From Nostoc linckia FACHB-104 (GTDB taxonomy: Bacteria; Cyanobacteriota; Cyanobacteriia; Cyanobacteriales; Nostocaceae), in contig NZ_JACJQJ010000007.1 of NCBI RefSeq assembly GCF_014696615.1, positions 124,001-188,000 on the forward strand: 64,000 nucleotides of DNA, given 5' to 3'. This document shows, piece after piece, positions 60,892-64,000 of the stretch. Position 1 is the first letter of the stretch, and each line of letters starts with the position of its first letter. The notes under the pieces were generated by a model, which searched no databases, was not told the DNA's origin, and saw only the letters and a program-made list of their open reading frames with translations. The position numbers and the translations under genes are program-made.

Positions 60892-61512
60892 TTACGCTCC
60901 TTCAATGGCTGCTACAACACCAAAGATTAAGAACAAGCAACCGCCAATTAAAGTTAGCTGACGTTCGGAGATGCGTCCCGCAATCATTTTGCCACCAATG
61001 ACTGCGATCGCAGCACAAATGGCGTGTCCTAATACTGCGCCTAAAGTCACCCCAATGGGATTATTACCAGCGGCTAGGGCAATGGTAGCAATTTGTGTGC
61101 GATCGCCCCACTCGGCCATGAATGTTAAGGTAAAGGCTTCGATTAAAATTGCCACTGGGGTTTTACGTTTGGGTAATTGTAAATCTGCTTGCTTTACCGC
61201 CGCTTCCGCTTCTTCTACAACTTCCGCATCACAACTAGCCGCTGACATTTTACTACCTTGGTACAGCAGCTTGAGACCAAAGGCAATAAACAAAGCGATT
61301 TCGGCATAATGAATATAAATTTTGGGCAATAAAGATACTGTTTGTCCCAAAACTACCGAAAGGATTGTCATTGCAGCTAAAGCGCCTGTTACTCCTATAA
61401 ATACCAAGCGTCTTGGGTGATGCATTGCCAAAATTACGGCGATAAAAAATGTTTTATCCCCTAACTCGGAAATTGTAATTAGTAACAAACCCGCGGTAAA
61501 AGCTGTTAGCAC
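60892..61512 (-). CDS. GDT1/TMEM165-family cation exporter (Mn2+, Mnx-like)
   Basis: A 206-residue membrane protein with six helices and the two family motifs ELGDKT (16-21) and EWGDRT (134-139), which line the cation path. Cyanobacterial relatives (Mnx) export manganese from the cytoplasm, to lumen or periplasm. The GTG at 61512 is chosen: AGGAG lies 9-13 bases before it, and all residues of a longer frame to 61656 are translated from a manganese riboswitch. The riboswitch supports manganese as substrate. The central loop (about 85-117) is acidic and cytoplasmic. Confidence 0.9.
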   Translation of the reverse strand: MLTAFTAGLLLITISELGDKTFFIAVILAMHHPRRLVFIGVTGALAAMTILSVVLGQTVSLLPKIYIHYAEIALFIAFGLKLLYQGSKMSAASCDAEVVEEAEAAVKQADLQLPKRKTPVAILIEAFTLTFMAEWGDRTQIATIALAAGNNPIGVTLGAVLGHAICAAIAVIGGKMIAGRISERQLTLIGGCLFLIFGVVAAIEGA

Positions 61513-61606
61513 TATCTCAAGCTCCTGAAAAATCGTTGACTGCGATGGAGCTTGATGAGAACCAAAAGACCTCACCAAGCTCCACACTTTTGGGTGTGAA
61601 CTCGGT
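61513..61606 (-). promoter_or_regulatory. Expression platform of the Mn2+ riboswitch (translational switch)
   Basis: On the minus strand three mutually exclusive elements can be read: GGAGCTTGGTGAG (61571-61583), CTCATCAAGCTCC (61547-61559) and the ribosome-binding GGAGCTTGA (61517-61525). The middle one pairs with either neighbour, 13 or 9 base pairs. Sequestering or freeing the ribosome site is thus built in. Confidence 0.7.
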
Positions 61607-61712
61607 GAAGGTCTCGCTTCCAAATACTGAATACTTGTCATCTGAACCAGGCTCATCGCCAGTATGTTGACTCAGATGGGCTGGCTTCTAATGCCAGCAG
61701 CTACTCCCCTTC
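61607..61712 (-). promoter_or_regulatory. yybP-ykoY manganese riboswitch aptamer
   Basis: On the minus strand GAAGGGGAGTAGCTGC opens the aptamer and GCGAGACCTTC closes it; GAAGG pairs with CCTTC as the closing stem. Inside, CTGGC/GCCAG and CATCTGA/TCAGATG form the arms, and GTCAACATACT lies between. These are the conserved words of the yybP-ykoY family, which binds Mn2+. It sits 95 bases before the GDT1 start. Confidence 0.88.
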
Positions 61713-61881: not shown

Positions 61882-64000
61882 CTATTCCACTACTTCATTC
61901 ACAGGGAATCTATCAATTAACTGCATAGCGCGGTAAGCATTGCGTTGCAGTGACTCTGGTAAATTCGGAACGTGAGGAATTTGAGATAATAAATCCAAAG
62001 TCCGGCGTAATATTCTTACCACATCACCTTCATCTAAGGTCGTATTTTCACATAGTTCTGTCCACTCAACTCCTAACGCCCATTGTTCTACCAGAGCAAT
62101 TAATTCAAACTCTAACCATATAGGCAGCGCCACGTTATACCGCCGTTGTATTTGGAACATCTGGCGGCGAATTCCCCGCAGTTTACCCAAAGCATCTACA
62201 ACTTGATTGCTGAGGTCAAAACGCACCTTGCTATCAGGTCGAGGTGTTTCTGTAACTAAAGCTGCAACTGCAGCTGCTAAATGGTGCGGATCTAAATTAT
62301 TTAATTCACCACTAGCTAATACCAAACCCAACCACAATTCATTTTCTCCGCGGATAGCAGCAGCAACTTGCCCTAATGCTGTGGGTACTAAGTTATCTAA
62401 ACAGCCAAAGTGCTGCAAAATTTCAATTAAATTGAGAAACTCTTCCCAGTGATGTTGGGATTGTTGCTCAACTTGCTCTTGCAATAGTTGCAATTCGGCT
62501 TCTAGTTCTACATAACGTGCCCGACGTTTAAAAATAGCGCCAGCATTACCAGATTGATACACAGGATGAGCTTCTAATTGCTCCTGTACAGCAGTTACAC
62601 GGCTCAGTTGTTCTGCAACTTCTGGAGCCATATATAAAGATTCTTCTGGTTGCGGAATTCTTTGGGCAATGGCTGCTGTTTGTGCGTCACCACGGCATAT
62701 CTGTCCTGGTTTAAACAATAGTTCTGGTGGTGGCAAAATCTCCGGTGGGATATCAATTCGTGGTAATTCGGCATATAAATCAACGATATCTTCGGTTGTG
62801 CCTACATACCATCGGTTATCCCGCCCTAAGCAGACCAAGTAAGGTGCTTGCTCGCCAGATGTTTTACCAATTAACACGGCTGTCATTGGTGTAGGAACTG
62901 TGATGTTTTTGCCCTTGATACTCACCATTGTCCCTGAGACAGCAAAGCCCAACATCATTGCTAATTGTTCTTGTCTATCTTCCTGTGCTTGCTGTTGTAG
63001 AGTTTTTAATAATTGCCGTTCTACTTTTAGACGTTGGCGCAATTTCTCATACACAGCCAGTTCATTTTCATCAACTGCGGCGATTTGCTCCTGCAGTTGG
63101 TTTAAGTGGGCTTGCAGTTCAGCAATCTCATCGTAATTTGGTTGTAAATGCAGAGTCGCCATGTACTGACCAAAACTGCGTTCGATGAGTTCTCTAGTTT
63201 CATCCAATGTATGGGTTTGCAGTAGATTCAGTACCATCCCGTAGCTGGGGGTAAACTGGCTAACTAGAGGATCGGGTTTGGATGTTGCTAAATATGCCGC
63301 TTCTTTGGAGCCTTCAAAGGGAGTTTGTACTGTAACTACATGACCTTGTAAATCCATACCGCGACGACCAGCGCGTCCTGCCATTTGCAGGAATTCGGAA
63401 GCGTTCAACAGGCGATGTCCAGTGTCAGTACGCTTGGAAAGTGTAGAAATTACAGTGGTACGCGCAGGCATATTAATTCCCGCCGCTAGTGTTTCAGTGG
63501 CAAAGACAACCTTAATTAGCCCTTGCTGGAATAGTTCTTCTACTAAGACTTTCCAAGCAGGTAAAATTCCAGCATGGTGAGCCGCAATTCCACGGTAGAG
63601 AGGCGCAATTTGTCCCGAACGTCCAGCTTCGGGGTTGCGGCTTAAAAAATCATCAATTTGACGGCGCAAAATTTGGGATTCATCATTATTGACCAGCCAT
63701 AAATCACCTACCTCTGCCACGGCTTTATCACATCCCCTGCGACTGAAGATAAAGTAAATGGCGGGTAGCATATCCCGTTGCTGTAGCTGGCTCAAGGTAT
63801 AAATAATGCCGGGCGCTTCTGGCCTACCACCTTTGCCCTTATCCCCTTGTCGTCTTTTTCCCCTATTGGCTAGGCGTGGGTTGATTTTGGTTTTGTTGTC
63901 GTTGAGTAGGGGAAACAATCCTTTGGGATTGCAAAAATGAAATTCTAAAGGTACGGGGCGAAAATCGGAGTAAATTAGGTCAGTTGGCCCGTGAACGCGA
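61882..64000 (-). CDS. Ski2-like DEAD/DEAH-box RNA helicase (5' end outside window)
   Basis: 706 residues are present; the frame stays open to the right edge, and the sequence before the first in-frame TTG (RVHGPTDLIYSDFRPVPL) is family sequence, so the N-terminal lobe with Walker A and DEAD box is outside. Visible are the second lobe (YFIFSRRGCDKAV, GIAAHHAGILPAWK, FATETLAAGINMPARTTV, QMAGRAGRRG), an arch-like middle and the C-terminal helical DSHCT-like part. Ski2/Mtr4 relatives feed RNA to nucleases. A short Lys/Gly/Arg stretch (RGKRRQGDKGKGG) early in the visible part looks like an in-frame repeat insertion. Confidence 0.88.
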   Translation of the reverse strand, partial: RVHGPTDLIYSDFRPVPLEFHFCNPKGLFPLLNDNKTKINPRLANRGKRRQGDKGKGGRPEAPGIIYTLSQLQQRDMLPAIYFIFSRRGCDKAVAEVGDLWLVNNDESQILRRQIDDFLSRNPEAGRSGQIAPLYRGIAAHHAGILPAWKVLVEELFQQGLIKVVFATETLAAGINMPARTTVISTLSKRTDTGHRLLNASEFLQMAGRAGRRGMDLQGHVVTVQTPFEGSKEAAYLATSKPDPLVSQFTPSYGMVLNLLQTHTLDETRELIERSFGQYMATLHLQPNYDEIAELQAHLNQLQEQIAAVDENELAVYEKLRQRLKVERQLLKTLQQQAQEDRQEQLAMMLGFAVSGTMVSIKGKNITVPTPMTAVLIGKTSGEQAPYLVCLGRDNRWYVGTTEDIVDLYAELPRIDIPPEILPPPELLFKPGQICRGDAQTAAIAQRIPQPEESLYMAPEVAEQLSRVTAVQEQLEAHPVYQSGNAGAIFKRRARYVELEAELQLLQEQVEQQSQHHWEEFLNLIEILQHFGCLDNLVPTALGQVAAAIRGENELWLGLVLASGELNNLDPHHLAAAVAALVTETPRPDSKVRFDLSNQVVDALGKLRGIRRQMFQIQRRYNVALPIWLEFELIALVEQWALGVEWTELCENTTLDEGDVVRILRRTLDLLSQIPHVPNLPESLQRNAYRAMQLIDRFPVNEVVE

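Follow-up and report, generated by a model that had tools for sequence, protein, structure and literature searches.

A conserved four-segment platform between yybP-ykoY aptamers and GDT1 genes of Cyanobacteriia, and its putative use as a transcription-timed Mn2+ switch

The leader of a GDT1-family gene of Nostoc linckia FACHB-104, analysed within a stretch of 64,000 nucleotides (the window), carries 3′ of its aptamer four alternately complementary segments, A, B, C and D, the last of them being the ribosome site, and their pairings A:B, B:C and C:D are mutually exclusive in series. We consider it likely that this leader is a yybP-ykoY Mn2+ riboswitch, in which a relay of the complementary segments turns on the translation of GDT1, a putative Mn exporter. 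Mn2+ would stabilise the docked aptamer together with its closing helix P1.1, so that the first part of A would be held when the RNA polymerase then makes B and C. The part of A:B left to form would then be its top alone, and C would displace it to give B:C; the ribosome site would emerge exposed, because C engaged in B:C is not free for D, and the 30S subunit could load on the open site (the ON state). In the absence of Mn2+, A would take all of B, and C would stay free to fold onto D with the help of an apical stem, leaving the site hidden (the OFF state). For the class Cyanobacteriia at large, we give an even chance to a wider proposal: that there is one homologous four-segment relay, decided only while the short stretch between C and the ribosome site is transcribed, that its ON state is metastable and timed by transcription, and that wobble pairs preserve the ability of C to pair with B as well as with D. 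If the relay reading is true, the exporter mRNA would keep a memory of the Mn2+ level that prevailed when it was made.

For photosystem II cyanobacteria require Mn in quantity, and an excess is harmful to them. In its statements on this regulation, PMC11649195 (2024) names ManSR as the only system identified so far for Mn in cyanobacteria, with little else known, and reports that the mnx transcript level is unaffected by Mn excess in wild-type Synechocystis; such an unchanged transcript would fit translational control, if that Synechocystis strain carries the leader. The leader would be a concrete second layer of Mn regulation beside ManSR, and its platform occurs in 143 of 291 genomes of the class. 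The association of the aptamer with GDT1 is already known, given the figure in PMC7380456, which cites 328 of 333 UPF0016-bearing strains under yybP-ykoY. A search of the open-access literature (yybP-ykoY, Mn riboswitch, cyanobacteria) found no description of the cyanobacterial platform in the texts it reached, and a text search of the review PMC7020235 gave no mention of riboswitches. The four-segment platform, which is real and well conserved in the sequences compared, would be the new part.

The GDT1 leader and its competing helices

The feature lies on the minus strand between the gene of a DSHCT-domain helicase (61882-63918) and GDT1 (60892-61512, minus strand), which encodes a GDT1-family (UPF0016) divalent cation/proton antiporter (Pfam PF01169, E 5.1e-47). 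The product has 206 aa and the motifs ELGDKT and EWGDRT, and its GTG start at 61512 was assigned on the evidence of the ribosome site and of aligned relatives. On both sides the GDT1 unit is flanked by short repeats (ATTACCC/ATTACCA type; 61830-61790 and 60856-60820).

The first-pass annotation had put a yybP-ykoY aptamer upstream of the GDT1 gene. In cmscan RF00080, covering the aptamer and part of the expression platform, matches 61724-61544 of the minus strand with 30.9 bits (E 9.3e-7, over the full model). The gathering cut-off is 45 bits, and at that cut-off the Rfam search of the leader gave zero matches. Within the source genome the leader is the sole convincing match, the other three having E 1.13 or worse. 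The P1.1 5′ strand GAAGG (61712-61708), recognised by its sequence and its covariation with the 3′ strand, opens the aptamer core GAAGGGGAGTAGC (61712-61700); the conserved aptamer loop GTCAACATACT (61671-61661), which we take to be the L3 region, follows from the sequence and the Rfam alignment; and both core motifs of the Rfam consensus, GGGGAGUAGC and AACAUAC, are present in the leader. As in the family, the riboswitch sits 5′ of a gene of Mn homeostasis, here GDT1. The assignment to the yybP-ykoY (Mn2+) family, with GDT1 as the probable target, is thus supported at the level of sequence, whereas what is known of the family and the nature of the target gene point to Mn2+ as the ligand, and the leader would be expected to respond to Mn.

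Segment A (61615-61594), delimited by folding and by the covariation of A:B, supplies both CCTTC (61611-61607), the 3′ strand of P1.1, and the 5′ arm of hairpin A:B. The 3′ arm of this hairpin is segment B (61587-61566, by folding and covariation), whose GGAGCTTGGTGAG (61583-61571) is also the partner of C. Segment C, CTCATCAAGCTCC (61559-61547), is the partner of B in the predicted ON state or, through its TCAAGCTCC (61555-61547), of D in the predicted OFF state. About 21 nt separate it from the ribosome site GGAGCTTGA (61525-61517), which constitutes segment D, is recognised by its sequence as a near-copy of part of B, and ends 4 nt ahead of the GTG start. All positions refer to the minus strand.

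The strings named by the first-pass annotation, among them those of its competing hairpin (GACCTTCACC, 61613-61604, and GGTGAGGTC, 61576-61568), were all found on the minus strand at the expected places, and as to the sequence elements its observation is confirmed. The 13-bp pairing it had seen between GGAGCTTGGTGAG and CTCATCAAGCTCC, which is B:C, is real and includes one G-U pair. The nine base pairs given for C:D are present and all Watson-Crick, but they understate the hairpin, since folding of 61561-61510 adds an apical stem of ATCG (61546-61543) with CGAT (61535-61532). A hairpin competing with the aptamer closing stem also exists, but it is A:B, with about 20 bp (61615-61594 with 61587-61566) and not the 9 bp proposed.

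Among 1000 dinucleotide shuffles of 61513-61712, an uninterrupted helix of at least 13 bp (G-U allowed) was found in 44, so one 13-bp helix alone is only moderately unusual. The longest uninterrupted helix observed has 16 bp and was matched by one of the 1000 shuffles, and the z-scores of the segments in the window are -7.7 for A:B, -5.5 for B:C and -2.2 for C:D. The reality of the helices is settled by conservation, and not by a chance test on the window alone.

Conservation of the platform in related leaders

A search with the GDT1 protein gave 446 loci, the best 80 of which were fetched, from genera that presumably belong to the Nostocales; within the 330 bases 5′ of the gene, GGRGAGTAG is present in 79 of these 80 loci and TCAACATA in 76. 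At E 0.1, RF00080 matched 122 of the 145 genomes searched from the family, and at E 0.01 it matched 108 of the 291 searched from the class, some genomes being in both sets, and no genome of either set gave a match above the gathering cut-off (0/145 and 0/291), which means that the Rfam cut-off missed every cyanobacterial copy in the two samples. From these loci and the window 210 leaders were parsed, while 33 others were without the patterns. A GDT1-type frame with a start codon follows 201 of the 210 (nine were dropped), 80 of the loci having been chosen by GDT1, and one leader precedes an MntP gene; 165 differ from one another between A and the start. At a clustering threshold of 93% there were 112 representatives, and removal of one with a long insert left 111 in the alignment. 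By eye, the length of B:C varies from a 9-bp core in many Nostoc leaders to 14-17 bp in other groups.

A platform model (R1) was built on the alignment from A to the start, with A:B and C:D as its only structure and a sequence profile that includes C, and it gave the 143 of 291 class genomes at E 0.001. As a test, another 39 R1 matches were fetched from outside the alignment, and the genomes of 34 had given no RF00080 match in the class search; compared with the aligned leaders over the first 100 nt, six are at least 93% identical and 11 less than 80%, the median being 82%. With GDT1 downstream, 36 of the 39 were usable; L271 was misread, no start codon was found for L281, and L287 has another downstream gene. 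Although these 36 loci were found through the platform model, 35 have the aptamer 5′ motif upstream, and z lies below -2 in 36 of them for A:B, in 32 for B:C and in 20 for C:D.

The downstream genes offer some observations of their own. On one contig (G390 contig 107) two riboswitch copies, L163 and L164, lie about 1.1 kb apart, one before GDT1 and the other before a cytochrome b561-type protein (PF01292). In L180 the riboswitch stands before an MntP-family Mn efflux gene (PF02659), not GDT1, and in L190, L207 and L215 the downstream GDT1-family gene has ELPDKTA replacing ELGDKT, a family search of L190 alone among the three returning PF01169. The whole platform of L287 (G210 contig 84) precedes a frame that by eye resembles the start of a quinone oxidoreductase, an unexpected target for an Mn switch. 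In the window, an open reading frame runs from 61656, with an upstream ATG, in frame with GDT1 through the whole leader (to 61513), and an automatic annotation could therefore begin the protein within the riboswitch. The leader as a coding sequence was rejected: only 23 of the 112 representatives are free of stops in the GDT1 frame between A and the start, and in 81 of the 112 the number of nucleotides in between is not divisible by three.

The P1.1 helix is GAAGG/CCUUC in 142 of the 165 leaders and GAAAG/CUUUC in 16, a compensatory change; six have a G-U pair and one another pairing, and none pairs AAGGGAG with ACCTTCA. P1.1 is therefore the closing helix expected of RF00080. In the columns of the 111 aligned leaders, 87.7% of the A:B cells are paired, against 38-46% when the partners are slid, and both sides changed in 9 of 21 pairs, where shuffles gave a mean of 5.2, and in 68 cells, where they gave 30.0; none of 500 shuffles was as high in percentage, pairs, cells or score, and 61 were in pair types. 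In B:C, 88.9% of the cells are paired (26-51% slid), with both-side changes in 9 of the 13 pairs (mean of the shuffles, 6.8) and in 80 cells (mean, 37.9), and no shuffle of the 500 reached its percentage, cells or score, while 17 reached its pairs and six its types. The C:D columns are paired in 65.4% of the cells and have both-side changes in 12 of 13 pairs; none of the 500 shuffles equalled their score, and 14 equalled the percentage, 37 the pairs, 31 the cells and 74 the types. Events were also counted on a GDT1 protein tree of 110 tips (one protein was too short), with two controls, one in which the partner was slid along by 1-4 columns and one in which the partners inside a helix were permuted 100 times. 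Both-side events number 25 for A:B (slid, 0-5; permuted mean 5.3, maximum 21) and 33 for B:C (slid, 0-7; permuted mean 6.5, maximum 21), and the 15 of C:D are not distinct from its controls (slid, 3-10; permuted mean 8.6, maximum 19). We attribute the weak columns of C:D to the ribosome site, which hardly varies and whose spacing to the start differs between groups, so that columns are misaligned.

Segment energies were compared independently of the alignment columns. Against dinucleotide shuffles, z is below -2 for A:B in all 111 leaders, for B:C in 100 and for C:D in 84. When partners are swapped across species, the native partner beats the mean foreign one in 87 of the 111 leaders for A:B and in 100 for both B:C and C:D, the non-partner controls giving 54 (A:C), 50 (B:D) and 47 (A:D): C and D coevolve. 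Two leaders, L119 and L124, read by eye as CACTAAATCTGC in A, GCGGATTTGGTG in B (as in L119; L124 differs by one base upstream, in the loop), CGTCAAATTCGTG in C and GGAATTTGA in D, with matching changes in all four segments, and in this lineage A, B, C and D changed in concert. Lack of covariation had been named by the first-pass annotation as what would refute its reading, and the test came out in favour, strongly for A:B and B:C and by columns weakly for C:D. The architecture of P1.1, A:B and B:C is near certain, and the C:D helix is likely, backed by the swap test and energy rather than by columns. An ON-switch architecture is well supported, because A:B, B:C and P1.1 covary and native C and D fit best, and its ON direction is suggested by the exclusive pairings. 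What evolution displays here is a set of mutually exclusive helices, and so switching itself, rather than one fold.

The conserved end point of the platform is the ribosome site, which makes translation the likelier level of control; in leader L115 the start codon itself is inside the C:D pairing. It is improbable, in our view, that the leader is instead a transcriptional ON switch of the L. lactis type, with A:B as a terminator, the Mn2+-stabilised P1.1 as the antiterminator, and B:C and C:D as secondary pairings. Such a reading would account for the TCTTTT directly after A:B in the window, and P1.1 against a terminator is the L. lactis mechanism as presented in PMC11087558. However, a T run of at least four within 19 nt after the A:B core occurs in only 28 of the 112 representatives and is lacking in 84, the leaders of Scytonema and Fischerella type have by eye a stem extended through the place of the T run instead, and a terminator leaves the conserved B:C and C:D unexplained. 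As a general mechanism the terminator was rejected on these 28 of 112; in the window, with its run of four in TCTTTT, it may act in addition. Translational control, rather than a terminator, would be the general output.

Folding before and after the ribosome site is made

Folding was computed with a nearest-neighbour energy model, that is, without tertiary structure, Mn2+ or ribosomes. The lowest-energy fold of the whole leader consists of A:B and C:D without P1.1, and whole-leader folding alone is uninformative. Mean energies are -27.1 kcal/mol for A:B, -24.3 for B:C and -18.8 for C:D, and A:B falls to a mean of -14.6 kcal/mol when it lacks the ten bases that run to the end of P1.1. On average, B:C is thus predicted to lie between the complete A:B, the most stable, and A:B stripped of its base. 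In single leaders, B:C surpasses the complete A:B in stability in 37 of the 165 and its top in all 165.

A held P1.1 was represented by removing the first ten bases of A, and the transcript preceding D by ending it 16 nt before the start codon. In this shorter transcript, with A free, the partner of B is A in 132 of 165 leaders and C in 33; with P1.1 held, it is C in 162 and A in three. The 36 further loci gave B to C in 34 with P1.1 held; with A free, B goes to A in 22, and B:C already wins in 14. Once the leader is complete and followed by the first 18 nt of the gene, B is with A in 164 of 165 (A free) or 143 of 165 (P1.1 held), the zone of the ribosome site is mostly paired in 156 or 149, respectively, and holding four more bases of A beyond P1.1 still leaves B with A in 133. 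The transcript ending at the start codon gives, for A free and P1.1 held, B with A in 165 and 138 of 165 leaders, a hidden zone in 155 and 141, and B:C with an open site in none and 12. The median cost of keeping A unpaired (111 leaders) is 6.9 kcal/mol before D with A free and 1.9 with P1.1 held, rising after D to 16.9 and 6.2; the corresponding costs in the window are 6.2 and 0.4, then 15.8 and 4.1 kcal/mol.

According to the model, P1.1 would decide the fold only before the ribosome site is transcribed. Since it flips the choice only between the transcription of C and that of the ribosome site, the switch should be kinetic and/or ribosome-captured. Folding with and without the aptamer constraint, a check proposed by the first-pass annotation, moves B from A to C before D is made, but the complete leader usually stays OFF.

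A quite improbable reading is that of an equilibrium two-state switch, in which Mn2+ binding by itself makes B:C with an open site stable. The mutually exclusive helices it needs do exist and are conserved, a held P1.1 cuts the median post-D cost of unpaired A from 16.9 to 6.2 kcal/mol, and in the window the ON fold (-30.3 kcal/mol with P1.1 held) and the top of A:B with C:D (-31.5) are only 1.2 kcal/mol apart. Nevertheless, with P1.1 held, B:C with an open site is the lowest-energy fold of only seven of 165 complete leaders (12 of 165 to the start codon), and the post-D cost of unpaired A is 1 kcal/mol or less in only two of 111. Errors of the model, and further masking of A by the folded aptamer, might bridge a difference of a few kcal/mol.

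The barriers in the window are direct-path estimates. Before D, passage from A:B to B:C would cost 18.8 kcal/mol if A is free and 3.9 if P1.1 holds it. In the transcript that includes D, with P1.1 in place, a barrier of 13.8 separates ON from the top of A:B with C:D, and one of 7.0 from a fold that combines B:C with A:D, at -34.5 kcal/mol, or 4.2 below ON; with A free, OFF lies at -45.5, again with a barrier of 13.8 from ON. The barrier of 13.8 to the top of A:B with C:D would make ON longer-lived than 7.0 would. The lowest-energy fold of the window to the start codon, with P1.1 held, has B:C formed and A paired to D, and this A:D fold would also hide the ribosome site, as a second route besides A:B with C:D. 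Pairing of A with D occurs in the lowest-energy folds to the start codon, P1.1 held, of 15 of 165 leaders, the window included. Across species the A:D duplexes are no stronger than non-partner controls, but the direct A:D pairing stands as a caveat to the relay.

The outcome had originally been ascribed to which of the stems forms. The exclusive pairings and the ON direction of that interpretation stand, but not its equilibrium view, as a held P1.1 seldom switches the full-length leader, where B remains on A in 143 of 165; it is partly supported, and its logic would hold for a decision made during transcription, but hardly at equilibrium. A reading with a degenerate aptamer, in which the leader would simply be a ribosome site of constitutive structure or would sense another metal, is very improbable, for although the RF00080 score is under the gathering cut-off, with none of 145 and none of 291 genomes above it, the core motifs and the P1.1 covariation are kept, the platform matches found without the aptamer carry its 5′ motif in 35 of 36, and 201 of 210 parsed leaders are followed by a GDT1-type frame, 80 of the loci having come from the GDT1 search, and one by MntP.

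Relation to known systems

In trp-type attenuators, serial competition among 1:2, 2:3 and 3:4 pairings is decided by a ribosome on the leader peptide and ends in a terminator. The cyanobacterial relay would resemble them in its serial competition, but would instead be decided by an aptamer and end on the ribosome site.

Within the yybP-ykoY family, the E. coli mntP riboswitch is similarly Mn2+-dependent and is described in PMC9603457 as turning on the translation of an Mn exporter; its expression platform differs, and R1 matched neither the mntP nor the alx leader of E. coli. The L. lactis riboswitch, as characterised in PMC11087558, likewise shares the P1.1 3′ strand with a downstream competing hairpin and is turned on by Mn2+. 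There the competing hairpin is a terminator, whereas across the 112 cyanobacterial representatives it is not generally followed by a U tract, and the cyanobacterial leader adds two conserved helices that end on the ribosome site.

The nearest mechanism, by analogy of topology, is that of E. coli PRE-alx. In the account of PMC3874183, this other member of the family folds into two hairpins when inactive; when it is active, strands of the two combine in a hybrid hairpin, which exposes the ribosome site. Its target is Alx and not GDT1, and the paper describes pH-dependent pausing as its driver; simple folding of the alx leader did not reproduce the hybrid hairpin. The cyanobacterial leaders also have two hairpins, A:B and C:D, and a hybrid, B:C, all three conserved (C:D by the swap test and energy). 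The active hybrid hairpin C/D of the alx leader is formed during transcription, and the active fold is less stable than the inactive one (PMC3874183), a relation that the energy model also predicts for the cyanobacterial leader.
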